The position numbers were made by a program, and so were the translations under genes. Shown one piece after another: positions 26,315-42,718 of a DNA stretch of 64,000 nucleotides. Positions within the stretch are counted from its first letter, which is position 1. Every line of letters begins with the position of its first letter. Under the pieces are notes generated by a model. It ran no database searches. It had not been told where the DNA came from and was given only the letters and a program-made list of their open reading frames with translations. The stretch is from Martinezella hainanensis (GTDB lineage: Bacteria > Pseudomonadota > Alphaproteobacteria > Rhizobiales > Rhizobiaceae), in NCBI RefSeq assembly GCF_900094555.1, contig NZ_FMAC01000011.1, forward strand, positions 1 through 64,000. Direction: 5' to 3'.

Positions 26315-27210
26315 CCAGCACGGTTTCCAAAGGCTTCTGGCCGCAGGGCAAAAAATGCGCCGCAATCGTCTCCGTGATCTTCGACGACGGGCTCGATGCT
26401 GTCGCGCAGGCGCCTGACCTGAGGGGGCGCAGCAAGAGCTTTTCCGTCTGGCAATATGGCGCCACGCGCGGCGTCGAGCGCCTTTGCAATGCCTTTGCCG
26501 ATGCCGGCATCTCCACGAGCTGGTTCGTGCCGGGGATCGTTGCGGAGAACCACGAAGAGCTGCTGCGCGATGTCGTGTCCCCAAGTCACGAGATCGAAAG
26601 TCATGGCTGGAATTTCGAGCGTTGCGACGCCATGCCGGCAACCGAAGGTGTCGATCTCCTGAAGCGCAGCCGCGAGAGGCTGAACGCCATCGCCTCGAAT
26701 GAGGTTTCCGGCTTCCGCCTTCCGGCCGGCAACTGGCCGCGCCGCTTTGATCGCCTGCTCGTCGAGGCCGGCTATGCGTGGTCGGCATCGTTGAACGGTG
26801 ACGATGTGCCCTACAGCCACGCCTCGTCGCTGGTGGAGATCCCGGTTCATAACGAACTCGAGGACCGGCCCTATTTCCAGTTCAATTTCACGCCGGCCTT
26901 CCCGAAGGGGCAAAGCCGCATCCCCTCCTACGAGGCAGTGCTCGGCAACTGGATTGCCGAGTTCGATGCCTACCGCAAATACGGCCTCTGCTACGTCATC
27001 CAGCTTCGGCCGGAGTGGACCGGCACGCCGGGCCGGATCGTGCTCGTCGAAGCCTTGCTTGCCCATATCACGAGTTTCGATGACGTGTGGTTGGCAACGG
27101 CTGCAGACGTAGCCCGCTGGCACGCCGGCAAGGGCACGATCGCGCCCAGCGACCACCCGATCAATGTCTATGAGGCCTATGTCGATGAGGAGCGGGCCGG
27201 TGAGCGGTAA
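26311..27210 (+). CDS. Polysaccharide-deacetylase-fold amide hydrolase (PuuE-like), second copy
   Basis: A 299-residue paralogue of the preceding protein, starting in a four-base overlap (ATGA). It keeps CAAIVSVIFDDGLDAV (Asp pair), ISTSWFVPGIVAENH, HEIESHGWNFERCDA, FRLPAGNWPRRFDRLL and YVIQLRPEWTGTPGRI. Unlike the first copy it has SHGWNF without the second metal-binding His, the form seen in PuuE allantoinase (SHGWRW-like). The two may form a hetero-oligomer or act on successive amide bonds. The gene overlaps the GTG start of the following MmgE/PrpD gene by 11 bases. Confidence 0.75.
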   Translation: MTSTVSKGFWPQGKKCAAIVSVIFDDGLDAVAQAPDLRGRSKSFSVWQYGATRGVERLCNAFADAGISTSWFVPGIVAENHEELLRDVVSPSHEIESHGWNFERCDAMPATEGVDLLKRSRERLNAIASNEVSGFRLPAGNWPRRFDRLLVEAGYAWSASLNGDDVPYSHASSLVEIPVHNELEDRPYFQFNFTPAFPKGQSRIPSYEAVLGNWIAEFDAYRKYGLCYVIQLRPEWTGTPGRIVLVEALLAHITSFDDVWLATAADVARWHAGKGTIAPSDHPINVYEAYVDEERAGER

Positions 27211-28561
27211 TCTGACTCAAGCACTGGCCGAGCTTGTCTGCTCGACGAAATTCGAAGCCTTTCCGCCCGAGACCATCCACAAGGCGAAGCTTCATATTCT
27301 CGATACGCTGGGTGCTGCGATTGCCGGCTCGGCATCGCGCGAAACCGATGCCGTCGTCGCGATGCTCGGTCTCCAGGCCGGAACCGGATCTTCCCCGATC
27401 TGGGGCCGACCGATCGCATCGGACGCGAGGACGTCAGCCTTCGTCAACGGTGTTTCTGCCCATGCCTACGAGCTTGATGACAGCGGCGGCTGCGATCATT
27501 CCGGCGCAGTTGTCCTTCCAGCGGCGCTTGCCGCGCTCGGCGACCGTAGCCAGCCGTTAAGCGGCCGCGACCTGTTGCGCAGCGTCCTGCTCGGCTACGA
27601 GGTCGGCCGCCGCGTGCTGGAAGCAGTCGGCGGCTATGAGGATCACAATGGCCTCGGCTGGCATTCGACGGGAACCTGCGGCGCGTTCGGCGCTGCCGCT
27701 GCCGTCGGCAGCATGGTGAAGCTCGATGCGAATGCGATGGCCTCCGCTCTCGGCTCGGCCTGCTCCTTTGCCGGTGGCACCTGGGCCTTCATCCATAATG
27801 GCAGCTCGACCAAGAAGCTCCATGCCGGCCGTGCCGCCGAAGGCGGCCTGATGGCTGCCTATCTGGCAGGCCAAGGGTTCGACGGCCCCGACAGCGTCTT
27901 CGAGCCGGAGCGCTGGGGCAGCTTTTTTGCGACTTTTGGAGCTGGAAAGGGCAATCCGGAGGGGCTTGTCCGCGACTTCGGAGACTATTGGCGGCTCAAT
28001 CGATGCTCCATCAAGCCGCATGCCACCTGCCGCGGCACGCATGCCGGGATCGATGCGCTTGACCTGATGATGCAGAACCATGGTCTTGAGCCTGCCGATA
28101 TCGCCGCCATCGAGGTCGACATCAGCGGCTTTCAGTACGGCATGTGCGGCGGCAAGGTCATTCAGTCGCGTGCACAGGCCCAGATGAGTCTGCCCTATGC
28201 GCTGGCGGCGCGGCTGCGTTACGGCAAGGTTTTTCTGGCCGAACTAGAGGAAGCCGCTTGGTCGGCAGCCGAGATCGGCCCTTTGATGGAGCGCATCACG
28301 GTGCGTATCGATCCCGCCATGAAGGACGAGGACGAGCCGGCAATCACGATTGTGACTGCCCCCGGCGAGCGACATCGGTTTGTCGTCGAATTTCCCCTCG
28401 GAGGCCCGCAGAACCCGCTGAGCGACGAGCGGCTGCTCGGCAAATATGCCGCGCTCGCCGGCATGGTGCTGCCGGCAGCGAAGGTCGACGCCATCAGCGA
28501 CTTTGTTCTCGACCTCGAAAATCAGACCGACGCCCGCAGCCTGCTTGCGCTGCTTCAATAA
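27200..28561 (+). CDS. MmgE/PrpD family protein
   Basis: From the GTG at 27200, with AGGAG seven bases upstream, the protein has 453 residues; ATG codons at 27164-27185 lie inside the upstream gene. MmgE/PrpD hallmarks are KAKLHILDTLGAAIAGS, SAFVNGVSAHAYELDD, GYEVGRRVLEA, GWHSTGTCGAFGAAAA and the central KPHATCRGTHAGIDA. The family includes 2-methylcitrate dehydratase, cis-aconitate decarboxylase and iminodisuccinate epimerase. In a cluster with an aspartase-superfamily lyase, an epimerase or dehydratase on an amino-acid-derived dicarboxylate is an attractive reading, but unproven. Confidence 0.82.
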   Translation: MSGNLTQALAELVCSTKFEAFPPETIHKAKLHILDTLGAAIAGSASRETDAVVAMLGLQAGTGSSPIWGRPIASDARTSAFVNGVSAHAYELDDSGGCDHSGAVVLPAALAALGDRSQPLSGRDLLRSVLLGYEVGRRVLEAVGGYEDHNGLGWHSTGTCGAFGAAAAVGSMVKLDANAMASALGSACSFAGGTWAFIHNGSSTKKLHAGRAAEGGLMAAYLAGQGFDGPDSVFEPERWGSFFATFGAGKGNPEGLVRDFGDYWRLNRCSIKPHATCRGTHAGIDALDLMMQNHGLEPADIAAIEVDISGFQYGMCGGKVIQSRAQAQMSLPYALAARLRYGKVFLAELEEAAWSAAEIGPLMERITVRIDPAMKDEDEPAITIVTAPGERHRFVVEFPLGGPQNPLSDERLLGKYAALAGMVLPAAKVDAISDFVLDLENQTDARSLLALLQ

Positions 28562-28609
28562 AAGATGCACCCGGAGGAGGGCGGCATTCGTTCAAAAGGG
28601 AAGACCGCG

Positions 28610-29998
28610 ATGAGAAATCAGAAAGAAGCCACATGGTCGCCGCTGTTCAAGCAGGCGGTCTCCAGGGATTTCGAGAGCTTTCACGAGTGCCTTGACCAGG
28701 ACAAACGCATCGCCCTGCACGATGTCGCCGGATCGAAGGTCCACGCCGAGATGCTTGCCCGCGCCGGCATTCTGACCGCTGACGAAAACGGTAAAATCCA
28801 GACCGGCCTCGACCAGGTGGCGGAAGAAATGCGCTCTGGCACCTTCGAATGGAAGGCGGAGCTCGAAGACGTTCACACCAATGTCGAGGATCGGCTGATC
28901 GCGCTGATCGGCGATGCCGGCAAGAAGCTGCATACCGCCAGATCGCGCAACGATCAGGTCGCGACCGACATTCGCCTCTATGCCCGCGAGCAGCTGGATT
29001 TGTTGGCCGATGATTTGAAAACGCTGATCGGTGCCTTTGTTGAACTGGCTGAAAAACATGCCGATGCGATCATGCCCGGCTTCACCCATCTGCAGGTGGC
29101 GCAGCCGGTCACCTTCGGTCATCATCTCATGGCCTATGTCGAAATGTTCCTGCGCGATCTCGATCGCGTCGGCGCGGCGCGGGAACGGCTCAACGTTTCC
29201 CCGCTTGGTGCTGCGGCCCTCGCGGGAAGCGGCTATCCGATCGATCCCGAATACAGCGCCTCCGAGCTTGGCTTTGCCGCATCCTTTGCCAATTCGCTCG
29301 ATGCCGTTTCCGACCGAGACTATGTCGTCGACGTCTGCAGCGCCGGTTCGATCATCATGGGGCACCTGTCGCGCTTCAGCGAGGAAGTGATCCTCTGGTG
29401 CACGCCGATGTTCGATTTCATCGAAGTGGGCGACCAGTTCTGCACCGGCTCGTCGATCATGCCACAGAAGCGCAATCCGGATCTCGCGGAACTGGTGCGC
29501 GGCAAGGCCGCCCGCGTCATGGGGAATCTCGCTTTTTCGGCGGCGCTGATGAAAAGTCAGCCGCTTGCCTTCAACAAGGACCAGCAGGAATCGAAGCCGC
29601 CGCTCACGGATACCCTTGAGACCGTCCGCGCGGCCGTCAGCGTCACGGCGCAGATGATCCCGACGATCACGGTGAAGCACGCAAGGATGCTTGCGGCCGC
29701 CAATCAGGGCTATTCGACGGCAACCGATCTTGCCGATTATCTCGTTCGCACCGGCCTGCCGTTTCGCGATGCGCACCATGCGGTCGCCGCGATCGTCGGT
29801 GCTGCCCGCGACAAGGCGCTCCCGACGCTTTCGGAGCTTTCGCTCGCTGACATGCAGGCCTTTGCGCCGATCATTCGCGAGGATGTCTTCGGGGTGTTGA
29901 CCGTCGAAGGTTCGGTCGCCAGCCGCGATCACAAGGGCGGCACGGCGCCGCGAAGGGTCCGGGAAGCCATAGAGACGGTGCGCCGCGCGATCGCCTGA
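28610..29998 (+). CDS. Argininosuccinate-lyase-like enzyme (aspartase/fumarase superfamily)
   Basis: From the ATG at 28610 the protein has 462 residues, the usual ArgH length. Motifs: DVHTNVEDRLI, LHTARSRNDQVATDIRL, MPGFTHLQVAQPVTFGHHL and the superfamily signature GSSIMPQKRNPD. Such enzymes eliminate fumarate from an N-substituted aspartate. Its place in a catabolic operon (48 bases after MmgE/PrpD, with its own LysR regulator) and not with argG suggests a specialised lyase for a guanidino-, ureido- or amino-linked succinate, as in EDDS lyase-type enzymes, and not the biosynthetic ArgH. Biosynthetic use cannot be excluded from sequence alone. Confidence 0.8.
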   Translation: MRNQKEATWSPLFKQAVSRDFESFHECLDQDKRIALHDVAGSKVHAEMLARAGILTADENGKIQTGLDQVAEEMRSGTFEWKAELEDVHTNVEDRLIALIGDAGKKLHTARSRNDQVATDIRLYAREQLDLLADDLKTLIGAFVELAEKHADAIMPGFTHLQVAQPVTFGHHLMAYVEMFLRDLDRVGAARERLNVSPLGAAALAGSGYPIDPEYSASELGFAASFANSLDAVSDRDYVVDVCSAGSIIMGHLSRFSEEVILWCTPMFDFIEVGDQFCTGSSIMPQKRNPDLAELVRGKAARVMGNLAFSAALMKSQPLAFNKDQQESKPPLTDTLETVRAAVSVTAQMIPTITVKHARMLAAANQGYSTATDLADYLVRTGLPFRDAHHAVAAIVGAARDKALPTLSELSLADMQAFAPIIREDVFGVLTVEGSVASRDHKGGTAPRRVREAIETVRRAIA

Positions 29999-31563: not shown

Positions 31564-32001
31564 ATGGATCTGTCGAAGATAAAAACACTGATCGATTTTG
31601 TTGGGCGATCCAACGTTACCGAACTCACGGTAACGGAAAAGGATGTCACGGTTCGGATCTTCCGAACGTCCAGTCCGACGGATCCGTTCCCTGCAGCGCA
31701 GATGCCTGCCAGCGTAGCAACCGGCCGCGCTGAACAAGGCGGCGATGTTTCGTGCAAATCGCAGGACTCCATTGTTGTGAGAGCGCCGATCTTCGGTGTC
31801 TTGCACCGGGCGCCAGCACCTGGACAGGAGCCTTTCGTTAAGATCGGCGACGTGGTGGAGGAGGGGCAGACGCTTTTCATCATCGAAGCGATGAAGGTCT
31901 TCAACAAGATCGCAGCCCCCCAGGCCGGTCACATCGGGCACCTCACCGAAATAGATGGCGGTGAAGTTGAGACGGGCGACATACTCGCGGAGATCGCGTG
32001 A
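31564..32001 (+). CDS. Biotin carboxyl carrier protein (AccB-like)
   Basis: From the ATG at 31564 the protein has 145 residues. The first 35 residues (MDLSKIKTLIDFVGRSNVTE, then a strand-rich segment) resemble the N-terminus of AccB, and a flexible linker leads to the biotinyl domain with IIEAMKVFNKI, Lys111 being the biotin site. Its stop overlaps the biotin carboxylase start by one base (TGATG). It is the first gene of a coupled operon with a biotin carboxylase and the three Pxp subunits, so it probably serves a dedicated carboxylase and not fatty acid synthesis. Confidence 0.85.
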   Translation: MDLSKIKTLIDFVGRSNVTELTVTEKDVTVRIFRTSSPTDPFPAAQMPASVATGRAEQGGDVSCKSQDSIVVRAPIFGVLHRAPAPGQEPFVKIGDVVEEGQTLFIIEAMKVFNKIAAPQAGHIGHLTEIDGGEVETGDILAEIA

Positions 32002-33383
32002 TGGCGGAAGCTTTCGACAAGGCGGGGCGACGTTTCGATACGGTTCTCATTGCCAATCGGGGCGAAATTGCTGCGCGAATTCAGCGCGCTTGCCGCGAAC
32101 TCGGGTTGAAGACGGTCGCGATCTGCTCCGAAGCCGATAGGCGGGCGCCTTATGGCAAGACTGCCGACACCTTTCTTTGCATCGGTCCTTCGAATGCAGC
32201 CGGCAGCTATCTCAATCAAAATGCGATCCTCCTTGCCGCGCAACTGACCGGGGCAGGTGCGATCCATCCCGGCTACGGGTTTCTGTCCGAGAACGCCGCC
32301 TTTTCCGAAGCCGTCGAGAGAGCCGGCATCGCATTCATCGGCCCCGAAGCCTCCTCGATCGCGACCATGGGCGACAAGATATCGGCAAAACGGGCAATGA
32401 TCCTTGCTGGTGTGCCTTGCGTGCCCGGTCCTGACACTTCCCTTCCGGATGATCCGGCTTCGGTCGAGCGGATCGCTGAGGAGATCGGCTATCCCGTGAT
32501 CATCAAAGCCGCAGGCGGCGGAGGTGGCAGGGGGATGCGGGTGGTGCTCGAGGCAGGCGAGCTGCACGAGGCCGTCGCCCTGACATCGGAAGAGGCTCGT
32601 CAGGCTTTCGGTTCCCCGGCGCTCTACATGGAGAAGTTCCTCCAGCATCCGCGTCACATCGAAATTCAGGTGCTCTGCGATGCCTATGGCAATGCCGTCT
32701 GGCTCGGGCATCGCGATTGCTCCATGCAGCGCCGGCATCAGAAGGTGGTGGAAGAGGCACCGGCACCCGGGATTTCTTCGGAAACGATAAAGCCGGTCGG
32801 CATGGCCTGCGTGCAAGCCTGCCGGCAGATCGGCTACCGTGGCGTCGGAACCTTCGAGTTCCTCTACGAAAACGGTGCCTTCTATTTCATCGAGATGAAC
32901 ACGCGCCTGCAGGTCGAACATCCCGTCACCGAGATGACCAGCGGGATCGATATCGTCCAGGCGCAGATAATGGTCGCCCAGGGTTTCCCCTTGGAAATAC
33001 GCCAGGATGATGTGGCGTGTACTGGCCATTCCTTCGAATGCCGCATCAACGCCGAGGATCCCGAAAGTTTCCTGCCTTCGGCGGGTACGATCTCGGAATT
33101 AATCCTGCCGGAAGGGCCGGGAATCCGGGTCGATACCCATATTCATGCCGGCTATCGGGTCTCGCCTTATTATGACTCGCTGATCGCCAAATTGATCGTT
33201 CATGCGCCTACACGAGCAGAAGCGATGGCCAAAATGCGCGAGGCGCTTGCCGCCACTCGGATAGAGGGGATTTCCACCAACCTGCCGCTGCTGCGCACAT
33301 TGTTGGAGGATGAAGGGTTTGCCCGCGGTGAGACGGATATCCACTATCTGGAACAATGGCTTCGGCAGAGGAGGGCGGCATGA
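32001..33383 (+). CDS. Biotin carboxylase (AccC-like)
   Basis: A 460-residue enzyme of the ATP-grasp biotin carboxylase family: LIANRGEIAARIQRACRELG at the N-terminus, the glycine-rich ATP loop AAGGGGGRGMRVV, HIEIQVLCDAYGN, RDCSMQRRHQKVVEEAPAP, and the catalytic FIEMNTRLQVEHPVTEM segment. It carboxylates the biotin of the carrier protein with bicarbonate and ATP. It overlaps the carrier gene by one base and the next gene by four. The carboxyltransferase expected for acetyl-CoA carboxylase is missing; instead PxpB and PxpC homologues follow, as in the fused urea carboxylase. Confidence 0.9.
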   Translation: MAEAFDKAGRRFDTVLIANRGEIAARIQRACRELGLKTVAICSEADRRAPYGKTADTFLCIGPSNAAGSYLNQNAILLAAQLTGAGAIHPGYGFLSENAAFSEAVERAGIAFIGPEASSIATMGDKISAKRAMILAGVPCVPGPDTSLPDDPASVERIAEEIGYPVIIKAAGGGGGRGMRVVLEAGELHEAVALTSEEARQAFGSPALYMEKFLQHPRHIEIQVLCDAYGNAVWLGHRDCSMQRRHQKVVEEAPAPGISSETIKPVGMACVQACRQIGYRGVGTFEFLYENGAFYFIEMNTRLQVEHPVTEMTSGIDIVQAQIMVAQGFPLEIRQDDVACTGHSFECRINAEDPESFLPSAGTISELILPEGPGIRVDTHIHAGYRVSPYYDSLIAKLIVHAPTRAEAMAKMREALAATRIEGISTNLPLLRTLLEDEGFARGETDIHYLEQWLRQRRAA

Positions 33384-33805
33384 GCGCGATCGACTTTAGT
33401 GATCCGTCAACCATCGCTGCTCTGGCCGACGCACTGACGGCAGCAGGCGTCGATGGCCTGGAAATTTCGCGACCAGATGGCAATCTGCGCATCGTGGTCT
33501 CGAAGGCCGGGGGTGCCCAAATCAGCCTGACAGGAAATGCGCAGCCTGCGCCTGCGACGTCCGTGGCGGTGGTCAAAGCGGCAATGGCGGGCCACTTCTA
33601 TCCTTTGCATCCTTCGGATTCCAACGGAACCGAGCGTCTGCCTCGCACCGTCTCAAGCCAGGATGTGATCGGTTTTATTCGCGTCGGTTCCGTCCTGCTT
33701 CCCATTCCGGCCGGCAGGTCCGGTTTGCTGGCCAGGCGATCGGTAGATCCCGAAACCCTGGTCGGATTCGGTGATCCCCTGTTCGAAATCGAGCCGCTGT
33801 CATGA
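33380..33805 (+). CDS. Biotin-carrier-like protein lacking the biotinylation lysine
   Basis: A 141-residue protein starting in a four-base overlap with the biotin carboxylase gene. The N-terminal part (LADALTAAGVDGLEISRPDGNLRIVV, ends quoted LADALTAAG and NLRIVV) resembles the AccB N-terminus. The C-terminal 70 residues keep the half-barrel spacing of a biotinyl domain (VIGFIRVGSVLLPIPAGRSG then VGFGDPLFEIEPL), but the AMKM/EAMK turn is absent, with no lysine at the tip. It cannot be biotinylated in the usual way and may be a structural subunit. It overlaps the PxpB gene by four bases. Confidence 0.65.
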   Translation: MSAIDFSDPSTIAALADALTAAGVDGLEISRPDGNLRIVVSKAGGAQISLTGNAQPAPATSVAVVKAAMAGHFYPLHPSDSNGTERLPRTVSSQDVIGFIRVGSVLLPIPAGRSGLLARRSVDPETLVGFGDPLFEIEPLS

Positions 33806-34509
33806 TTGCCACTTCGAACACCGTCACATCGCCGCGCGAAATCGTTCCTGCTTCCAAGGGCCGGGCAAGGATTTCCTGCATCGGCACGCGGTCTTTCCTG
33901 CTCGAAGCACCTGGCGAATTCGATTTGCCTGCGCAGCGGAGGATCTGGGCTCTGGCGCAAACGGTCAAGGGCTGGACTGATGTAGCAGAAGTGATTCCCG
34001 GAATGACCAATCTTCTGGCGATCCTCAGGGAGACGCCAGAGGATCCCGAGCTGGTGACAGGCCGGCTTCTTGAGGCATGGAACAATGCCCAGAGCCTGGA
34101 CCTCGCGGGAAAAGTCATCGAAATCCCGGTTCACTATGGCGGCGCTTATGCAATCGATCTTCCGGCCATCTGCGATTTTTGCGGCTTGAGCGATCGCGAG
34201 GTCGTGCGCATACACTATGAGGCGAGTTACCGCGTATTTGCCTTGGGAAGTGCCCCCGGTTTCGGTTACCTGCACGGGCTCGATCCGCGCATATACATGC
34301 CCCGCAAGACCGTTCCTTCGCTAAGGATGGAGAAGGGCAGCGTGACGATCGGCGGAATGCAGACGGGGGTTGCGATGCTGACGGGTCCGAATGGATGGAA
34401 TTCGCTCGGCCACGCGGAACTGCAGATGTTCGATCCGACTGCCGCGCCGCCGGCTTTGATGGCGCCCGGCGATATCATCCGCTTTCTGCCGGCAAGGATC
34501 GAGCTATGA
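33802..34509 (+). CDS. pxpB: 5-oxoprolinase subunit B / KipI-like (AHS1) protein
   Basis: A 235-residue protein of the allophanate hydrolase subunit 1 (KipI) family. Diagnostic segments: IEIPVHYGGAYAIDL, the GSAPGFGYLHGLDPRI loop, MPRKTVPSLRMEKGSVTIGG and GWNSLGHAELQMF. In Escherichia coli PxpB works with PxpC and PxpA to hydrolyse 5-oxoproline with ATP; in urea carboxylase the same domain is part of the carboxyl-transfer half. It overlaps both neighbouring genes by four bases, so it is made with the biotin carboxylase parts. Confidence 0.88.
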   Translation: MIATSNTVTSPREIVPASKGRARISCIGTRSFLLEAPGEFDLPAQRRIWALAQTVKGWTDVAEVIPGMTNLLAILRETPEDPELVTGRLLEAWNNAQSLDLAGKVIEIPVHYGGAYAIDLPAICDFCGLSDREVVRIHYEASYRVFALGSAPGFGYLHGLDPRIYMPRKTVPSLRMEKGSVTIGGMQTGVAMLTGPNGWNSLGHAELQMFDPTAAPPALMAPGDIIRFLPARIEL

Positions 34510-35501
34510 TCGAGATCATCGAAACCGGCCCATTCAACACGATCCAGGATCTTGGTCGCCCCGGCTACCGCGACATCGGCGTCACAGCCAGCGGCGCGAT
34601 GGACCCTCTTGCGGTGAAGATCGGCAATATCCTTGTTGGCAACGACGACGATGCGGCGGCCATAGAGGTTCAGACCTTTCCGTTCAAACTGCGGTTCGGA
34701 ACGGGTGCCGTCTTTGCCGTCACGGGCGCGGATGGTAGCCCGGTGCTGGACGATCGGGAGCTGATTGCCTGGTGCACCCACGTCGCCGAGCCTGGCCAGA
34801 TCCTCGAGCTAAAGCAGCCACCTAGGTTAGCGCGCGCTTACATCGTCTTTCGTGGAGGGCTGGATGTGCCGGTTCTCATGGGCTCGCGCAGCACGTCGCT
34901 GCGTGGCGGCTTCGGCGGCAATGCCGGTCGAGCGCTCGTCAACGGCAACCGGATTGATTTTGGCACATCCGCCGATGCGCTCCCCCTGCCGGCAGGTGGT
35001 CTTGCCGTCGTCGAGCCTGCAGTGGCGCTAAAGGATGTTTTTCCGGCTCCGGTCGACGGTGTTCTATCCGTCCGTGCGGTCGTTGCCGGCGAACATGAGC
35101 TATTTGCCGCCGATGGCGAGGCCTTCTGGAACCAGAGCTGGAGGATATCGTCGAGCAGCGACCGCACCGGCTATCGCCTGTCCGGCGAACCGATCAAACC
35201 GACGGCGACAGTCGAGATGCGCTCGCATGGCGTCGTGCCTGGCGTGATCCAGGTCCCGCCGGCCGGCGAGCCGATCATTCAGATGAGCGATGCCAATACC
35301 GCCGGTGGCTATCCGAAGATTGCCGGCGTCGTCGAATGCGATCTGTGGCGGCTTGGCCAGGCTCGGATCGGCACCCGGCTCCGTTTCGTCCGCTCGACGC
35401 ATGCCGAGGCGCGCGCGGTGGAGCAGGCCGTTGCCCGCTATGTCGAGGATGTCAGGCGGACGTCGCAAATGGTCAAGCGTGCCTTGAAGGCAATGGCCTG
35501 A
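34506..35501 (+). CDS. pxpC: 5-oxoprolinase subunit C / KipA-like (AHS2) protein
   Basis: From the ATG at 34506 (overlapping the PxpB stop by four bases) the protein has 331 residues. AHS2/KipA features: FNTIQDLGRPGYRDIGVTASGAMD at the N-terminus, RAYIVFRGGLDVPVLMGSRST, and SDRTGYRLSGEPIK followed by SHGVVPGVIQVPPAGEPIIQMSD, each quoted in part. Together with PxpB it forms the subunit pair found in 5-oxoprolinase and in the transfer half of urea carboxylase. The PxpA gene follows after 30 bases. Confidence 0.9.
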   Translation: MIEIIETGPFNTIQDLGRPGYRDIGVTASGAMDPLAVKIGNILVGNDDDAAAIEVQTFPFKLRFGTGAVFAVTGADGSPVLDDRELIAWCTHVAEPGQILELKQPPRLARAYIVFRGGLDVPVLMGSRSTSLRGGFGGNAGRALVNGNRIDFGTSADALPLPAGGLAVVEPAVALKDVFPAPVDGVLSVRAVVAGEHELFAADGEAFWNQSWRISSSSDRTGYRLSGEPIKPTATVEMRSHGVVPGVIQVPPAGEPIIQMSDANTAGGYPKIAGVVECDLWRLGQARIGTRLRFVRSTHAEARAVEQAVARYVEDVRRTSQMVKRALKAMA

Positions 35502-35531
35502 CGGCAACTAGGGGCATCAAGGGAGGAAACG

Positions 35532-36299
35532 ATGAAGATCGATCTGAATTCCGACATGGGCGAGGGTTTTGGTCCCTATCGGCTATGCGACGACGAAGCG
35601 ATGATGAAGATCGTCTCATCGGCCAATATCGCCTGCGGTTTTCATGGCGGCGACCCGGACACGATGGCGCGCATGGTTCGCCTCGCGAAGGAAAACGGCG
35701 TGGGTATCGGCGCGCATCCGGGTCTGCCGGATCGGCCCGGTTTCGGCCGGCGCGAGATGCCGTTCCAGCCGGACGAGCTTCGCCAGCAGATGCTCTATCA
35801 GCTCGGCGCATTGATCGCGATCGCCAGGAGCGAGGGCATGAGTGTCGGACATTTCAGCTTTCATGCGGCGATGGGCAATATGGTCAATCGCGATCCAGCG
35901 CTCGCCGATCTGATGATGAATGCCATTGCCGCGGTCGATCCGCGTCTGGTCGTCTTCGTGACATCAGGCAGTGAAATCGAAAAGGCGGCAAGGCGCGCGA
36001 AACTCAAGACGATGGCGCTGTTTCTGGCTGACCGCGCCTATGATGCCGACGGCAGGCTCGTTGCCCGCGGTCTGCCGGGCGCGCTGGTCAAGGACGAGGC
36101 CGCGGTCCGCACACGGGTGCGTCGCTTTCTGACGGATGGGACCGTCGAGGCGATCGACGGCAGCACGCTTGAAATGCGAGCCCGATCGATCCTCGTCCAC
36201 AGCGATACGCCCGGCTCGCTCGACCTTGCCCGCGTCATCCGAAGTGAAATCGAGGCTTCCGGCGCCACCTTGGCGCCTGCGGCCGAACTCGCATCTTGA
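35532..36299 (+). CDS. pxpA: 5-oxoprolinase subunit A (LamB/YcsF family)
   Basis: A 255-residue protein of the LamB/YcsF family with the signature KIDLNSDMGEGFGPY, SSANIACGFHGGDPDTM, GIGAHPGLPDRPGFGRR and LADRAYDADGRLVARGLPGA. PxpA is the catalytic subunit that opens the ring of 5-oxoproline using PxpBC. GGAGG precedes the start (AAGGGAGGAAACG). Here it ends the carboxylase operon, implying that ring opening of a lactam is coupled to, or preceded by, biotin-dependent carboxylation. A transaminase gene follows after 46 bases. Confidence 0.92.
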   Translation: MKIDLNSDMGEGFGPYRLCDDEAMMKIVSSANIACGFHGGDPDTMARMVRLAKENGVGIGAHPGLPDRPGFGRREMPFQPDELRQQMLYQLGALIAIARSEGMSVGHFSFHAAMGNMVNRDPALADLMMNAIAAVDPRLVVFVTSGSEIEKAARRAKLKTMALFLADRAYDADGRLVARGLPGALVKDEAAVRTRVRRFLTDGTVEAIDGSTLEMRARSILVHSDTPGSLDLARVIRSEIEASGATLAPAAELAS

Positions 36300-36345
36300 T
36301 GTTGCTGGCCAGCAAGTTTTTCTTTTCCATTGAAAGAGCACGCCA

Positions 36346-37551
36346 ATGCCTTCCACAGCCGATCGTCTGAAGAACGTTTCCATCTCCGCCTCCGCCGCCA
36401 TGACCCAACGCGCCCGCGAACTGGCCGCCAAGGGCATCAAGGTTGTCAGCCTCTCCTCGGGGGAGCCGGATTTTTCGACACCCGCCCATGCGATCGAGGC
36501 AGCGCATGCGGCCGCACTTGGCGGCGACACCAAATATCCGCCGATGGATGGCACACCAGCGCTGAAGGCTGCAATCAGCAGAAAATTCAAGCGCGACAAC
36601 AATCTCGATTATGATGCAAACCAGATCGTCGTTTCCGGCGGCGGCAAGCAGGTGATCTTCAATGCGATGCTGGCCACCTGTAATCCAGGCGACGAGGTCG
36701 TCATTCCCACGCCGTCCTGGGTCAGCTACGCCGACATCGTCAAGTTTGCCGGTGGTGTCCCGGTCGCCGTCCCCTGCTTCGAGCAGGCCGGGTTCAAGCT
36801 GCGTCCGGAAGACCTCGAGGCTGCGATCACGCCGCGCACCAAATGGCTTCTCCTGAATTTTCCGAACAATCCGACGGGTGCCGCCTGCTCGCGCGCGGAA
36901 ATGGCCGCGATCGCCGAAGTCATGCTGCGCCATCCGAACGTCTGGATCCTGACCGACGATATCTATGAGCATCTGGTCTATGACGGGTTCGAATTCTGCA
37001 CGATAGCCGATGCCGAACCGAGGCTTTACGACCGGGTCCTGACGATGAACGGCGTCTCCAAGGCCTATGCCATGACCGGCTGGCGCCTGGGATACTGCGC
37101 CAGCGGATCGAAGGAATTGATTGCCGCGATCAGCAACGTCAACGGTCAGAACAGCGGCGGCATCGCAACCGTCACGCAGGCAGCGGCGATCGCAGCACTG
37201 GACGGACCGCAGGATCTCCTGAAGGAGCGGGCGGCGATCTACAGGGACAGACGCGACTTCGTGCTCGATCAACTGTCGAAGGTCGATGGACTGCGCTGCC
37301 ACAAGCCGGAAGGCGCCTTCTACATCTATCCCAATATGTCCACCCTGATCGGCAAGACCACCAAGGGCGGTCGCAAGATCGAGACGGACGTCGATTTCGT
37401 CATGGCGCTGGTCGATGAGCACCATGTCGCGACAGTGCAGGGCTCCGCTTATGGTATGAGCCCTTATTTCCGCATCTCCTATGCGACAAGCATGGAAAAG
37501 CTTGGCGAGGGCTGCGCCCGCATCGCCGAGTTCTGCCGCGATATGCGCTGA
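36346..37551 (+). CDS. Class I PLP aminotransferase, aspartate aminotransferase type
   Basis: A 401-residue fold-type I aminotransferase of the AatA/AspC gamma subgroup. It has SLSSGEPDFSTP, YPPMDGTPALKAAI, NFPNNPTGA, the DDIYEHLVYD cofactor aspartate and the PLP lysine in NGVSKAYAMTGWRLGY. It would convert an amino acid such as glutamate or aspartate to its 2-oxoacid. Just behind PxpA it fits removal of the amino group released after lactam opening. The gene ends 46 bases from the convergent LysR gene with a strong hairpin between them. Confidence 0.88.
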   Translation: MPSTADRLKNVSISASAAMTQRARELAAKGIKVVSLSSGEPDFSTPAHAIEAAHAAALGGDTKYPPMDGTPALKAAISRKFKRDNNLDYDANQIVVSGGGKQVIFNAMLATCNPGDEVVIPTPSWVSYADIVKFAGGVPVAVPCFEQAGFKLRPEDLEAAITPRTKWLLLNFPNNPTGAACSRAEMAAIAEVMLRHPNVWILTDDIYEHLVYDGFEFCTIADAEPRLYDRVLTMNGVSKAYAMTGWRLGYCASGSKELIAAISNVNGQNSGGIATVTQAAAIAALDGPQDLLKERAAIYRDRRDFVLDQLSKVDGLRCHKPEGAFYIYPNMSTLIGKTTKGGRKIETDVDFVMALVDEHHVATVQGSAYGMSPYFRISYATSMEKLGEGCARIAEFCRDMR

Positions 37552-37568
37552 CCGGTGATCCCTCGTGC

Positions 37569-37593
37569 TTCCGGCCCGGCCTACGGGCCGGAA
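37569..37593. terminator. Bidirectional terminator-like hairpin
   Basis: TTCCGGCCCG and CGGGCCGGAA form a perfect ten-base-pair stem with a five-base loop, exactly between the convergent aminotransferase (+) and LysR (-) genes. The flanking T or A runs are short, so it may act with Rho or simply protect both 3' ends. Confidence 0.7.
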
Positions 37594-37597
37594 AACT

Positions 37598-38503
37598 CTA
37601 TAATTTCAGCTGCTCGGTCAGCTCGACGAGGATGTCCTTGACCGCGAATGCCGGCTCCGACAGCGAGTTCTGGTCGGATGTGCAAAGCGACAGCGTTTCC
37701 TCGATCCGCGGCGAAATCAGCCGGCAGACCAGCGGTTCGCTCGATTCGGAGACGATACGGTCGGCAATCGCCTTCGGCATGATGGTCGCGCCAAGCCCGC
37801 CGCCGACGGCGCGCGCCAGTGTTCGCACGATTTCGACTTCGGCCACGACCTTCAGATTGATGCGGCTGCGCGTGAAGGCGGCATCGACGGCCCGGCGCAC
37901 GAAATTGTAGGCCGGCGGCAGCAGCATCGGCATGCCGTCCAGCGCGCTGACCGGCACGGGTTTCTGGTCCGGGTCGATCGCGAAATTGCGATGGGCAACG
38001 AGATAGAATTCCTCCCTCAGGATCGGCTCGAACCGCACGCCCTTGATCGGCCCCGTGCCGTGGATCAACGCCATTTCCAGCCGGCCGGTCATGATCATCT
38101 GGCTATAGGTCTGACCGACGCTCTCCGTCAGATGAAGCAGAATTCCGGGGTGCCTCTTGCGTGTTTCCGCCAGGAGATCGACCGAAAGCGTGGCGGCGCT
38201 GCTGAAAGGCACGAGGCCGACCGAGACGCGCCCGGCAAGCGAATTGCCGGCTGCGGCAGCATCGGCCTGCGCCTGCTCCATCTGGCGCAGAATGATCTGC
38301 GCGTGCCGATAAACCGCATGCCCGGCATCGGTCATGCTGACGCCCTGCTGGCTTCGGATCAGGAGTTTCTGGCCGAAATGTTCCTCGAGCGCCGCCAATT
38401 GCTGGCTGAGTGCCGGCTGGGCGAGATGCAGGATATCGGCGGCCCGCGTGATGCTGCCGCTATCGACGATAGCGATGAAGGATTTGAAGCGTCTGATATC
38501 CAT
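37598..38503 (-). CDS. LysR-family regulator, Nac/Cbl-like
   Basis: From the ATG at 38503 the protein has 301 residues; an upstream ATG at 38536 is possible and a much longer frame is an artefact. The N-terminus MDIRRFKSFIAIVDSGSITR, then LAQPALSQQLAALE and LIRSQQGVSMTDAG, closely follows the nitrogen assimilation control protein Nac. The C-terminal co-inducer domain includes LTESVGQTYSQMI and LARAVGGGLGATIMP. It is divergent from the SDR-ABC operon; the shared region holds an ATA-N9-TAT sequence and an inverted repeat. It probably ties module C to nitrogen supply or to a ligand of the pathway. Confidence 0.87.
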   Translation of the reverse strand: MDIRRFKSFIAIVDSGSITRAADILHLAQPALSQQLAALEEHFGQKLLIRSQQGVSMTDAGHAVYRHAQIILRQMEQAQADAAAAGNSLAGRVSVGLVPFSSAATLSVDLLAETRKRHPGILLHLTESVGQTYSQMIMTGRLEMALIHGTGPIKGVRFEPILREEFYLVAHRNFAIDPDQKPVPVSALDGMPMLLPPAYNFVRRAVDAAFTRSRINLKVVAEVEIVRTLARAVGGGLGATIMPKAIADRIVSESSEPLVCRLISPRIEETLSLCTSDQNSLSEPAFAVKDILVELTEQLKL

Positions 38504-38656
38504 GGCTTTGGGTACTGTTCTGTCTTTACGGGGCATGTTTGCAGACGCGCATCTGTTTTGCAACGCGCGCCGATGTCGGAACGCCATGCGGATCGCTGCA
38601 AAAGTGGCGCGACGCCCCTCGGCCAAGGCCGGCTCGCCTGCGGCCGGCAGACCTCC

Positions 38657-38686
38657 ATAAAACTTGCTTATTACTCCAAAAGTAAT
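38657..38686. promoter_or_regulatory. Candidate Nac-like/LysR binding sites in a divergent promoter
   Basis: ATAAAACTTGCTTAT (38657-38671) fits the ATA-N9-TAT consensus of Nac sites. It runs into a second element, ATTACTCCAAAAGTAAT (38670-38686), a perfect six-base inverted repeat with a five-base centre that also satisfies the LysR T-N11-A rule. Both lie between the Nac-like regulator gene (38503) and the SDR gene (38747). Confidence 0.55.
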
Positions 38687-38746
38687 CGGTCTTAGGCAAG
38701 GAGTTGAAGCTCCGCTAATGTCCAAACCAACAAAAAGGGGATCAGA

Positions 38747-39526
38747 ATGCCATTCTCCGACTACAAGACCGCGCTGGTCACCGGCGCCTCCTCCGGTATC
38801 GGCGCCGCGGTGGTGGAGCGGCTTTGCCGCGAGGGCATCAAGGTGCATGCGATCGCCCGCAGCGCCGGCGCCCTGAAGGAACTGGCCGAGCGCACGGGAT
38901 GCATCGCCCATGTCATCGATGTGACGGATCGCGCCGCAATCGCGGATCTTGCGAACCGGGTTCAGTTCGACATTCTGGTCAACAATGCGGGTGTCGACCG
39001 GCCGAAGAAATTCCTTCAGGCTGACGAAGAGGACATCGATCTCCTCATCGATGTCAATCTCCGCGCCGTTCTGCATATCTGCCGCCTCATCGTGCCCGGA
39101 ATGGTCGCTCGCGACCGCGGACACGTCATCAACATCTCGTCGATTGCCGGAAACTACAACTTCGGCGGCAATTCCACCTATCATGCCGTCAAGGCCGGCG
39201 TCGCCATGCTGTCGAACCAGCTGCGCATCGACGCATTCGGCAAGCGGGTTCGCGTCACCGAAATCTGCCCCGGCCGCGTCGCGACCGATATCTTCAACCA
39301 CGTCCATGGTGATGACCCGAGCGTGCGCGAACGCTTCATCGACGGGTTCGAGTTGCCGCAGGCGGCCGATATCGCGGATGCGATCGCCTTTGCGATTTCG
39401 GCGCCGGTCGCGGTCAATATCGGCCACATGGAGATCACGCCGACATTGCAGGTCATGGGCGGTCTGCAGACGGCAAAGCCCGAGACCTCCGCCGCCACCT
39501 ATGATGCGGAAGGTGCGAAGCGGTGA
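38747..39526 (+). CDS. Short-chain dehydrogenase/reductase (module C)
   Basis: A 259-residue classical SDR: TGASSGIGAAVVERL for the dinucleotide, NNAGVDRPKKF, INISSIAGNYNFGG with the catalytic Ser, and YHAVKAG as YxxxK. The C-terminal ITPTLQVMGG is typical of the YdfG-like serine/hydroxy-acid dehydrogenase branch. It opens an operon with a polar-amino-acid importer (its stop overlaps the next GTG start by four bases), so it likely oxidises a beta-hydroxy amino acid or a breakdown product brought in by that importer. AAAAAGGGG precedes the start. Confidence 0.85.
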   Translation: MPFSDYKTALVTGASSGIGAAVVERLCREGIKVHAIARSAGALKELAERTGCIAHVIDVTDRAAIADLANRVQFDILVNNAGVDRPKKFLQADEEDIDLLIDVNLRAVLHICRLIVPGMVARDRGHVINISSIAGNYNFGGNSTYHAVKAGVAMLSNQLRIDAFGKRVRVTEICPGRVATDIFNHVHGDDPSVRERFIDGFELPQAADIADAIAFAISAPVAVNIGHMEITPTLQVMGGLQTAKPETSAATYDAEGAKR

Positions 39527-40230
39527 GCGGGTTCGATCTGTCGGCCATCCTTAGGAACCAGGATTACGTCGCGATGCTCTTGCAGGGCATCGAGATGACC
39601 TTCGTCATCTATGTCGGCTCCTGGCTCCTTGCGATGACGCTCGCCGTCCTGCTCTTTGCCTTCCGGGTCTCGCCGCTTCGCATCGGCGATCCGATCGTGA
39701 AGGCCTACGTCTCATACCATCGCAACGTGCCGACGCTGGTGCAGCTGATGTTCTGGTATTTCGGGATCTATACGCTGATGCCGCAAGGCGTCACCGACTG
39801 GCTCGCCGACCACAACGCCGAGGCAATCTTTGCCATCATAGGGCTGGGACTGTGCCAGGCCGCTTATTTCAGCGAGGATTTGCGCTCCGGCCTGCGCTCG
39901 GTCAGCCCGGGGCAGATGGAAGCGGCCAAGGCGCTCGGGCATGGCTACATCTCGGCCATGCGCTTCGTCATCATGCCTCAGGGCGTGCGCAATGCCCTGC
40001 CGCCGCTCATCAATCATAGTGTTTCGCTGTTCAAGAACAGTAGTCTCGCAATCGTCATCGGTGCGTCGGAGCTTACGCATGCCGTCAAGGAAATCGACAA
40101 TGTCAGTTTCCGCACCTTCGAGATCTACCTGATCGGTACAGTCATCTATTTGTTCTTCTCCCTCATCATCATGGCCTTCGGCGCATATATCTCGCTGCGC
40201 AGCGATCCGATGCGGAGGGCGCGCGCGTGA
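39523..40230 (+). CDS. Polar amino acid ABC importer permease, first subunit (module C)
   Basis: A 235-residue HisQ/GltJ-like permease starting at a GTG that overlaps the SDR stop (GTGA), with GGAAGG upstream. It has about five membrane segments, YVSYHRNVPTLVQLMFWYFG and the EAA loop SVSPGQMEAAKALGHGYISAMR followed by VIMPQGVRNALPPL. It is paired with a second permease (four-base overlap), as in glutamate/aspartate importers of the GltJK type. Confidence 0.87.
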   Translation: MSGFDLSAILRNQDYVAMLLQGIEMTFVIYVGSWLLAMTLAVLLFAFRVSPLRIGDPIVKAYVSYHRNVPTLVQLMFWYFGIYTLMPQGVTDWLADHNAEAIFAIIGLGLCQAAYFSEDLRSGLRSVSPGQMEAAKALGHGYISAMRFVIMPQGVRNALPPLINHSVSLFKNSSLAIVIGASELTHAVKEIDNVSFRTFEIYLIGTVIYLFFSLIIMAFGAYISLRSDPMRRARA

Positions 40231-40985
40231 TCCAGGACGTCATCAAGATCATCCATGACTATTGGCTGCTGCTGCTGATCGGCCAGTATCCCAACGGCCC
40301 GCTGGGCGGCCTTGCCAACACCCTTATCCTTTCAGCACTCGCCATCGCGCTGGCGTTCCCCGTCAGCATATTGCTTGCCATGGCCCGTCTTTCCAAATGG
40401 GCAATCCTCAGATGGCCCGCGACCGGCCTCGTCTATATCACGCGCGGCGTTCCGCTTTTGATGCTGATCCTGTGGTGCTATTTCATCGTTCCGCTTTGGA
40501 CGGGGGCGGATGTCCCGAGCTTCCTGATCATGCTGGTAACGCTTGTGATCTATGAGGGCGCGTTCTTAAGCGAGGTCGTGCGGGCCGGCATCGTCTCGCT
40601 CGGCCAAGGGCAGATGGATGCCGCCAGGGCGCTTGGCCATAGTTACATCGGCGCGATGCGCTTCGTGATCCTGCCGCAGGCGCTCTACAACATGATCCCG
40701 AGCATGATCTCGACCTTCGTTTCGACGATCAAGGACACGACGCTTGGCTACATCATCAACGTGCCGGACCTGACCTTTGCGGCAAGCCAGGTGAACAACC
40801 AGCTTCTGTCGCAGCCCTTCCAGGTCTTCTTCATCCTCGCCGTTGTCTACTATGGGCTTTGCTGGAGCCTGACCCACGTCGCAAACAGCGTCGAACGGCG
40901 AATTGCCCGCCGGCGGGCCGGGCCAAGGAAGATGCGCCTGCGCAGCGACGTCGTTCCCTTAAAAACATTCACGGAGCAGCTATGA
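40227..40985 (+). CDS. Polar amino acid ABC importer permease, second subunit (module C)
   Basis: A 252-residue permease starting at a GTG in a GTGA overlap. [17 protein letters not shown] and the EAA loop [22 protein letters not shown] with [13 protein letters not shown] define the HisM/GltK family. With the preceding subunit it forms a heterodimeric channel. Its stop overlaps the ATPase start by four bases. The basic C-terminal tail ([16 protein letters not shown]) is longer than usual and cytoplasmic. Confidence 0.87.
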
Positions 40986-41752
40986 GCATCCCAGTTTCCG
41001 CACCGCAGGACGGCGCTCGGGAGATCCGTCTTCGCGAGGTCTGCAAGAGCTACGGTCATTACCAGGTGTTGAACAACATCAATGCCGATGTCAGCCGCGG
41101 CGAAGTCGTTGTCATTTGCGGACCATCCGGTTCCGGCAAGTCGACGCTGATCCGCACGATCAACCGGCTGGAAGAGATCAATAGCGGTTCGATAGATTTT
41201 GAGGGCAGGAATATTCATGCCGCGATGGGCGCTGCCGAGCTCAATCGGCTGCGCAGCCGGATCGGTTTCGTCTTTCAGAATTTCAACCTGTTTCCGCATC
41301 TGTCCGTCGTCGACAACGTTTCGATGTCACCAATCCGGGTCAAGGGCGTGCCGGCGAAAGTGGCGCGCGAGAAGGCGCTTGCATTGCTGGATCGCGTCGG
41401 TCTTGCCGACAAGGCCAATGCCTATCCCGGCCAGCTTTCAGGCGGCCAGCAACAGCGCGTGGCCATCGCCCGCGCCCTCGCAATGGAGCCTCCGGTCATG
41501 CTCTTCGACGAGCCGACGAGCGCGCTTGATCCTGAGATGGTCGGTGAAGTTCTCAGCGTCATGAAGAACCTGGCGGCCGAAGGAATGACCATGCTCTGCG
41601 TTACCCACGAAATGGGCTTTGCCCGCGACGTGGCCGACCGGATCTGGTTCATCGATGCTGGCGAGATCCTGGAGACAGCGCCACCCGAGGAATTTTTCAA
41701 GAGCCCCCGTCATCCCAGAGCTCAGCGCTTTCTTTCGGATCTGCGCCACTAA
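40982..41752 (+). CDS. Polar amino acid ABC importer ATPase (module C)
   Basis: A 256-residue GlnQ-type ATPase from the ATG at 40982. Walker [20 protein letters not shown]-loop [14 protein letters not shown], signature [17 protein letters not shown], Walker [16 protein letters not shown] and the [14 protein letters not shown] switch are all intact. It is translationally coupled to the two permeases and followed by its binding protein after 31 bases. Confidence 0.9.
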
Positions 41753-41783
41753 GCACCTGAAATCAATAACAAGGAGAACAGCA

Positions 41784-42620: not shown

Positions 42621-42674
42621 CCATAGGCCGCTTAGTCCGGCCAATCATCCATCCGAAAATTGTCATCGATCGCA

Positions 42675-42696
42675 GGCGGCGGGCACGCCCGCCGCC
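42675..42696 (+). terminator. GC-rich hairpin between the binding-protein gene and the RraA-like gene
   Basis: GGCGGCGGG and CCCGCCGCC form a perfect nine-base-pair stem with a four-base loop, just after the importer genes and 23 bases before the next start. There is no T run. It may end or stabilise the transporter message and reduce read-through into the RraA-like gene. Confidence 0.55.
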
Positions 42697-42718
42697 GGCT
42701 TAACCATGGGAGGTTTCC

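Follow-up and report, generated by a model that had tools for sequence, protein, structure and literature searches.

Biotin carboxylase and two carrier proteins in one overlapping operon with pxpABC: a candidate rhizobial catabolic system for a lactam amino acid

PxpABC is the prokaryotic 5-oxoprolinase, known in Escherichia coli as YbgJ-YbgK-YbgL and present also in Bacillus subtilis; its name reportedly comes from Niehaus and colleagues in 2017 (J Biol Chem). Why should its three genes stand, in a rhizobial genome, in a single overlapping run with genes for a biotin carboxylase (BC), a biotin carboxyl carrier protein (BCCP) and a second, carrier-like protein that lacks the biotin site? The run lies in a 64,000-nucleotide stretch of Martinezella hainanensis (contig NZ_FMAC01000011.1, positions 1 to 64,000), here called the window, from a genome of 7.25 Mb (G000) in which the cluster is on the contig that we number C18. 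We give a probability of roughly one half to the reading that the cluster is a dedicated catabolic system for a lactam amino acid, a biotin-equipped branch of the PxpABC family with a NAC-family regulator.

The gene grouping is not chance. Among 77 rhizobial loci collected by a PxpB similarity scan of genome contigs (69-93% identical), bc, the carrier-like gene, pxpB, pxpC and pxpA are each present in all 77 and bccp in 76, so that the full set of six is found in 76 of 77; the contig of the remaining locus (L016) begins inside bc, hence the missing bccp, and its pxpC is short. With junctions measured from the start codon closest to a 4-base overlap, neighboring genes overlap by 1-4 bases at bccp/bc in 76 of 76 loci, at bc/carrier in 77 of 77, at carrier/pxpB in 74 of 77 (the other three give -8, +1 and +2) and at pxpB/pxpC in all 76 measured. 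A preliminary description of this DNA had positioned and identified the six genes, had noted that the first five overlap by 1-4 bases, and had called for a survey of the six-gene set in other genomes. Open reading frames together with Pfam and NCBIfam matches bear out the positions and identities, and the overlaps hold in the window and in nearly all 77 loci. The end that it gave to the cluster, 36299, is too early. Because an aminotransferase, a LysR regulator, an SDR oxidoreductase, an ABC transporter and an RraA-family gene are retained downstream, the conserved unit is larger than first noted and spans about 31564-43393, as follows.

31564-32001, + strand: bccp, biotin carboxyl carrier protein of 145 amino acids (aa), with biotin motif IEAMKVFN and a Biotin_lipoyl match
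31998 (GTG) or 32001 (ATG) to 33383, + strand: bc, AccC-like biotin carboxylase, with Biotin_carb_N, CPSase_L_D2 and Biotin_carb_C
33380-33805, + strand: carrier-like gene for a non-biotinylated BCCP-like protein of 141 aa, with FIRVGSVLLP aligned in place of the BCCP IEAMK motif
33802-34509, + strand: pxpB (AHS1), CT_C_D; TIGR00370 at 172 bits (cut-off 145.6)
34506-35501, + strand: pxpC (AHS2), CT_A_B; TIGR00724 at 279 bits (cut-off 230)
35532-36299, + strand: pxpA (LamB/YcsF), LamB_YcsF; NF003814 at 341 bits (cut-off 226), with altered motifs
36346-37551, + strand: pyridoxal phosphate-dependent aminotransferase, PRK06107-like but under that model's cut-off
37598-38503, - strand: LysR regulator of the NAC family, NF008410 at 324 bits (cut-off 309), start inferred
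38747-39526, + strand: SDR oxidoreductase, by family match
39523-40230, + strand: polar amino acid ABC permease 1, by family match
40227-40985, + strand: polar amino acid ABC permease 2, by family match
40982-41752, + strand: ABC ATPase, in an open reading frame of 40859-41752, start inferred at ATG 40982
41784-42620, + strand: amino-acid solute-binding protein, in an open reading frame of 41619-42620, start inferred at ATG 41784
42719-43393, + strand: RraA-family aldolase, 4-carboxy-4-hydroxy-2-oxoadipate aldolase model NF006731 at 219 bits (cut-off 179)

In the 77 loci the aminotransferase is retained 76 times, LysR (on the opposite strand), SDR and permease 1 each 74 times, and permease 2, the ATPase and the binding protein each 75 times; the genes upstream are not retained (lysR1 1 of 77, argH 1 of 77, mmgE 0 of 77). 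In 19 of 23 genomes searched, an RraA gene 82-97% identical to that of the window lies on the same strand as pxpB at a distance of 8.7-9.0 kb; in two more the distance is 13.9 kb. As for the other two genomes, G055 has an RraA relative of 34% identity about 1 kb from pxpB, and G074 is without an RraA gene. By family match all three of PxpA, PxpB and PxpC are encoded in the cluster; the window PxpC reaches the broader TIGR00724 and, at 269 bits, does not reach the cut-off of 500 of the NCBIfam PxpC equivalog NF045499. The parts and their pairing are already visible to annotation pipelines. On pRL10 of R. johnstonii 3841, for example, where the cluster is RL_RS29525-RS29590, these genes are labeled as acetyl-CoA carboxylase subunits, a hypothetical protein (the second carrier), 5-oxoprolinase and a biotin-dependent carboxyltransferase family protein (PxpC), and with such labels the system is easy to overlook.

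Both marks of a biotin-dependent carboxylase that we tested are present. The biotinyl lysine of BCCP is found in 79 of 79 rows, and the window BC retains K116, K159, H209, K238, E276, E288, N290, R292, E296 and R338, which we take to be the active-site residues of the family. The carrier rows (79 for BCCP, 80 for the carrier-like protein) were drawn from the 77 rhizobial loci and from L133, L126 and L114. The BC alignment was used for residues only, as its tree is poorly resolved (8 of 33 inner branches starred) and its pyruvate carboxylase row is a wrong, short fragment (17% filled). By PF02785 the window genome holds seven BC genes, namely that of the cluster, a second pxp-linked one on contig C16, and open frames of 453 (AccC-sized), 665, 681, 1171 and 1216 aa, the last being a separate urea carboxylase.

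The BC of the cluster scores above the accC cut-off (635 versus 626.5 bits) and the best model of its BCCP is AccB, though under the cut-off (93.7 versus 115.2), as would be expected if the two belonged to an acetyl- or propionyl-CoA carboxylase with its carboxyltransferase elsewhere and the pxp genes were unrelated neighbors. We regard this as very improbable, given that an AccC-sized BC lies outside the cluster (C10:501809), that the carrier/pxpB overlap is kept in 74 of 77 loci, and that both carriers stay with pxpABC in four loci of family code f52 that have no BC gene. The statement in the preliminary description that there is no acyl-CoA carboxyltransferase holds within the set of cluster genes scanned; six further BC genes, the urea carboxylase among them, lie elsewhere in the genome.

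What, then, would receive the carboxyl group? The cluster had been described as split-urea-carboxylase-like. Urea carboxylase and urea amidolyase do resemble it in having a BC, a BCCP and the AHS1/AHS2 carboxyltransferase (CT) fold, and the PxpC model matches both YbgJK (5dud; Z 30.1, root-mean-square deviation (rmsd) 2.8, 293 residues aligned) and the urea carboxylase CT fold (5i8i; Z 27.0, rmsd 3.2, 301 aligned). In a tree of 57 PxpB plus PxpC rows (L127 and L121 left out), however, the window type is off the urea carboxylase branch, and its partners, at support 100/99, are the biotin-free PxpBC of E. coli and of L113. The fused type, described below, is supported at 100/100, a type with gene order PxpA-BCCP-BC-PxpB-PxpC (type II) joins urea carboxylase at 99/98 with the program's long-branch warning, and the biotin label needs 4 changes. 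A second tree of 55 chosen rows, with PxpA added and urea carboxylase left out (7 rhizobial rows including the window and L133, 28 biotin-free), again places the window type with E. coli at 100/99 and joins the rhizobial rows with those of family code f80 at 100/100; here the two-carrier label needs 2 changes and the altered PxpA 1. Deep forks are weak in both trees. Papers given here by PMC number are cited from excerpts, and in one of them Lys1605 of KlUA is named as most likely the general base of urea carboxylase (PMC5770610). In our alignment its column, located by our own sequence comparison, is Lys for all 15 urea carboxylases and all three type II rows, and Arg for every other row (window type, fused type, biotin-free and E. 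coli). Neither its tree placement nor this residue, then, makes the window PxpBC a split urea carboxylase; the cluster differs further in its separate subunits and in having PxpA in place of allophanate hydrolase.

A variant carboxylase acting on urea or guanidine is accordingly hardly credible to us. The common CT fold, as in the match of the PxpC model to 5i8i, would speak for it, but the genome has its separate 1216-aa urea carboxylase, the lysine is an arginine, PxpA is present, and no allophanate hydrolase is found among the cluster genes scanned. Three candidate arguments from PxpBC were rejected. The general-base lysine does not serve as proof of carboxyl transfer, the window group having Arg. 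The union of type II with urea carboxylase carries the long-branch warning, and in the 55-row tree, which lacks urea carboxylase, the partners of type II are biotin-free rows (81/90). Eight columns (PxpB L15, E17, G166 and G167; PxpC V33, R117, S225 and G291, in fragment numbering) looked like a signature separating biotin-linked from biotin-free PxpBC, but E. coli shares five of them, and they therefore track the branch as much as biotin.

Biotin genes adjoin pxp genes well beyond the rhizobial loci. In a 120-genome sample of the phylum, PF02682 matches occur at 48 places in 34 genomes; 15 are urea-carboxylase-sized, and the remaining 33 divide into 13 with an adjacent BC, counting the window, and 20 without. 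The 13 fall into three architectures: the window type (window, L133, L126, L114), type II (L110, L140, L142), and a type in which BC and BCCP are fused and so are PxpB and PxpC, the latter not in L130 (L118, L119, L122, L129, L130 and L132, the last without a detected carrier part). In another order 100 of 145 genomes have PF02682, and two of 20 stand-alone PxpB loci examined there (L193 and L194, from the genus of G074) have biotin genes; the other 18 show no BC in the stretch examined, L188 having a weak carrier-type match at its edge. Each of three f80 genomes has further stand-alone PxpB genes, and each of four f52 genomes has one PxpB.

The window genome itself carries a second biotin-linked pxp cluster, of type II, on C16 (locus L110, 5728-10005), and its two PxpA genes are both in biotin-linked clusters. 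The PxpB of L110 keeps the urea carboxylase lysine, and this cluster is perhaps a better candidate than that of the window for an enzyme that N-carboxylates a lactam. Type II thus resembles the window type in joining biotin genes to pxpABC, and differs from it in that its PxpBC goes with urea carboxylase in the 57-row tree (the long-branch join), in keeping the lysine in 3 of 3 rows, and in that no second carrier was seen in the three loci. Its gene order is that of Pseudomonas aeruginosa PA0492-PA0496, and we presume by order only that L110 is the same operon. The function of PA0493/0494, in an operon PA0493-0496, is given as unknown in the part available of PMC6249292, and further literature on PA0493-0496 includes PMC5521831; a 2011 survey noted paired stand-alone genes, with functional data nonexistent then (PMC3199775, in excerpt).

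The third protein of the cluster has a lost biotin site that is conserved as lost, which goes beyond the preliminary description. None of 80 carrier-like rows has Lys at the site (H, P, S, D, L, Q, F or A stand there instead), and the protein has no Pfam match at E 0.01 and a single weak BCCP-type NCBIfam match. Near the lost site an L-[LVIM]-P stretch occurs in all listed variants except L126, with L173 as a second exception. An AlphaFold2 model (predicted local distance difference test score, pLDDT, 80.3; predicted template-modeling score, pTM, 0.54) is structurally similar to the biotinyl domain of E. coli BCCP (1bdo, Z 12.9, rmsd 2.0, 79 aligned; 4hr7, Z 12.8). Since the gene is kept in 77 of 77 loci, carries the L-[LVIM]-P stretch and yields a model of this kind, it looks like a conserved BCCP-like protein and does not look like decay. 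As modeled, it would have the BCCP fold without the lysine motif, as in the BADC proteins of plants, which lack the AMKL motif and are reported as an assembly "glue" for BC-BCCP, an inhibitor role being also proposed (PMC11926652, in excerpt). The likeness is drawn by description rather than by direct sequence comparison and extends to a BCCP-like protein with its lysine motif lost; the present protein differs in being bacterial, in adjoining pxp genes and in having L-[LVIM]-P near the lost site.

A profile search with this protein at E 1e-5 gave matches, many of them weak, at 44 places in 42 of 297 genomes from the order. Of the 44 places 11 were examined and five more fell in loci already covered; ten of the 11 adjoin pxp genes and one (L181) is a plain accBC. 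Loci L173-L179 have a biotinyl and a non-biotinyl carrier together, as do L114, L193 and L194 in a different order; beside pxp genes the pair recurs in three further family codes of the first order and in one genus of the second. Four f52 loci (L175, L176, L177 and L179) have both carriers and pxpABC with no adjacent BC in the stretch examined, and their genomes have only two BC genes each genome-wide (open frames of 535-608 and 1158-1196 aa). Hence the carriers go with pxpABC rather than with the BC gene. A single origin of the second carrier was considered and set aside: the best carrier tree (121 columns, L175 omitted) gives two origins, and one is possible too. Locus L180 (G214, contig C9) has pxpBC, a non-biotin carrier, pxpA, SDR and RraA, with neither a biotinyl carrier nor BC in the 15 kb examined.

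If the biotin genes point to how the system works, PxpA may point to what it works on. Using E. coli numbering, we compared 78 rhizobial PxpA rows (the 77 loci and L133) with 30 others, biotin-linked and biotin-free. Of 47 columns at least 90% conserved in the 30 rows, 7 are uniformly switched in the rhizobial ones, a change that the preliminary description did not have: K104 to S, L109 to M, and E158, F160 and C216 each to L in all 78 rows, G107 to A in 77 and an A to G in 74. Seven control groups, smaller at 2-6 rows, gave 0 or 1 such columns. K104, G107, E158 and C216 are each kept in 30 of 30 other rows, and rhizobial PxpA thus lacks these conserved motifs of PxpABC; the window protein reads SFHAAMGN at the KPHGMLYN site of E. 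coli and has, in its own numbering, S109, A112, L163 and L221. H106, D162, H218 and D220 are retained, so that the enzyme is probably active. To judge from their position beside these invariant His and Asp motifs, the switched residues may line the substrate site, and the replacement of near-invariant residues suggests a substrate other than 5-oxoproline.

The sister f80 group has four of the same PxpA places changed (K104 is N, E158 is V, and F160 and C216 are both L, with G107 and L109 kept), and its loci also carry SDR and RraA genes. The f52 loci, L126, L173 and the gamma loci keep K, E and C. From these patterns the PxpA change tracks the SDR/RraA gene set rather than biotin. In PxpB, 3 of 19 conserved columns are switched in rhizobial rows (F132 to S, R155 to S and an A to C; controls 0-3). 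In f80 loci F132 of PxpB is replaced by A and R155 by V, but the A is found also in f52 loci and L126. L069, L071 and L073 were left out of alignment A2.

A biotin-linked PxpBC, as the preliminary description proposed, is supported by the overlaps across 77 loci, by upstream genes not being kept, by the intact BC residues, the separate AccC-sized BC and the carrier lysine in 79 of 79 rows, by linkage at 13 of 33 places, and by PDB entry 9yx5, titled "Structure of the long chain acyl-CoA carboxylase complex from Mycobacterium smegmatis with MSMEG_0435-MSMEG_0436 bound", which contains AHS proteins and an alpha3 biotin subunit. The split-urea-carboxylase label that came with the proposal is the part not borne out, and the proposal as a whole is thus partly supported. 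Several results weigh against the reading as a whole. The window PxpBC shares the supported branch (100/99) of E. coli PxpBC, whose surroundings, over the 8 kb shown, include no biotin gene, and the branch therefore does not need linked biotin genes; Arg replaces the general-base lysine of urea carboxylase just as in biotin-free PxpB; and the cluster PxpB is the only PF02682 protein in 5 of 20 rhizobial genomes, so that a role in 5-oxoproline metabolism keeps some plausibility. In PxpC 0 of 33 columns are uniformly changed (controls 0-3; the short L016 excluded), and the 3 of 19 in PxpB are no more than the 3 of 15 of control group T2. Moreover, the f52, L126, L173 and gamma loci combine both carriers with a canonical PxpA pocket, L126 with its canonical pocket has a distant (34%) RraA-family gene beside pxpB, and the tie between pocket change and SDR/RraA counts as one event, since rhizobial and f80 rows form one clade.

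The shared branch, the Arg and the 5 of 20 genomes would fit an ordinary, biotin-free 5-oxoprolinase PxpABC, with the BC and carrier pair serving another carboxylation or riding along. We hold this to be a possibility of some substance and still on the unlikely side, because it leaves aside the overlaps that join the first five genes in the 77 loci, the PxpA motifs switched in 78 rows, the existence of three architectures linked to biotin genes, among them the one with fused PxpB-PxpC and fused BC-BCCP, and the fact that no other carboxyltransferase is found among the cluster genes scanned. Nor need 5-oxoproline depend on the cluster, given a fused hydantoinase A/B protein elsewhere in the genome. 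Six rhizobial genomes, that of the window and the five without another PF02682 protein, each contain an open frame of 1211-1240 aa that matches Hydantoinase_B, and the protein of the window genome was confirmed as a hydantoinase A+B fusion, the layout of eukaryotic 5-oxoprolinase. Its candidacy as the 5-oxoprolinase was not sustained: no NCBIfam cut-off is met and the best PDB match is N-methylhydantoinase.

Could the carboxyl group instead stay on a carbon of the product? A biotin-dependent C-carboxylase, with PxpA and RraA acting on the carboxylated compound, would suit the score of RraA over the cut-off of a 4-carboxy-4-hydroxy-2-oxoadipate aldolase/oxaloacetate decarboxylase model, whose substrate is a 4-carboxy compound, and also the co-occurrence of SDR and RraA with switched PxpA motifs in rhizobial and f80 loci. 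RraA-family aldolases act on several substrates, however, and urea carboxylase, which among biotin-dependent enzymes is nearest to the PxpB/PxpC fold, makes allophanate from urea, which is N-carboxylation (PMC5770610, in excerpt). We consider this alternative quite improbable.

Returning to a biotin-equipped PxpABC system for a lactam amino acid, its steps might run as follows. The ABC transporter would import the lactam. BC, to judge from its family, would charge the biotin of BCCP with CO2 at the expense of ATP and bicarbonate, and the PxpB/PxpC pair, having the urea carboxylase CT fold, would activate the lactam amide by transferring the carboxyl group to it. PxpA would then hydrolyze the ring and the carbamate would decay to CO2 and the free amino acid, which the aminotransferase, SDR and RraA aldolase may convert to central metabolites. 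The passage from carboxybiotin to opened lactam is proposed by chemical analogy. The lysine-less carrier, by its likeness to plant BADC, might be a non-catalytic assembly partner of carrier and carboxylase. From the RraA model and the altered PxpA pocket one might guess, weakly, at a gamma-substituted pyroglutamate such as the 4-hydroxy or 4-hydroxy-4-methyl compound. Relative to the PxpABC 5-oxoprolinase (background in PMC8453981, in excerpt), the cluster shares all three subunits and a supported PxpBC branch with E. coli, and differs by its own BC, BCCP and non-biotin carrier, by the replaced K104, G107, E158 and C216 of PxpA and by a conserved catabolic gene set.

A broader proposal, which we think doubtful, is that PxpBC is fundamentally a biotin-dependent carboxyltransferase acting on lactams. 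It would be served by dedicated biotin genes in rhizobia and the PA0492-0496 type, by a borrowed AccC in f52, by a borrowed alpha subunit in mycobacteria (9yx5) and perhaps by borrowed AccB/AccC even in E. coli, the PxpABC of which is on one supported branch with the two-carrier systems, with opening through an N-carboxylated lactam and with a BADC-like dummy carrier as standard in one branch. The M. smegmatis MSMEG_0435-0436 complex resembles the cluster in having an AHS1/AHS2 pair on a biotin carboxylase complex and differs in its alpha3 subunit. In excerpts, the M. tuberculosis alpha3 subunit is described as common to several carboxylases (PMC11001197), and the two mycobacterial AHS genes as up about twofold under nitrogen limitation (PMC4617892). 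Our literature searches gave no paper on the 9yx5 structure among the matches listed, and likewise none among those listed on a biotin-dependent PxpABC, a paired dead carrier or the PxpA change, coverage of subscription journals being poor; in a paper on C. glutamicum pxpTABC, "biotin" occurs only in a strain note and in references (PMC13274462).

If the lactam reading is right, the cluster would represent a biotin-driven way of opening amide rings, and AHS1/AHS2 chemistry would be common to urea carboxylase and 5-oxoprolinase; it would also offer a bacterial case of a conserved non-biotinylated carrier partner. The gene set is a defined one, with a regulator, a transporter and a predicted product pathway, and its substrate could be found by growth tests.

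Two minor observations may be added. In a collection of plasmids the non-biotin carrier protein has matches in 169 records, of which 126 are named Rhizobium and 50 are typed conjugative. Within the window, at 27164-29998 on the + strand, an MmgE/PrpD protein (best PDB match IDS-epimerase, E 6.8e-36) is directly followed by an argininosuccinate-lyase-family protein, a pair that adjoins two polysaccharide-deacetylase-family genes and an amino-acid ABC transporter and that we presume may be an epimerase and C-N lyase of the iminodisuccinate/ethylenediaminedisuccinate (EDDS) type.

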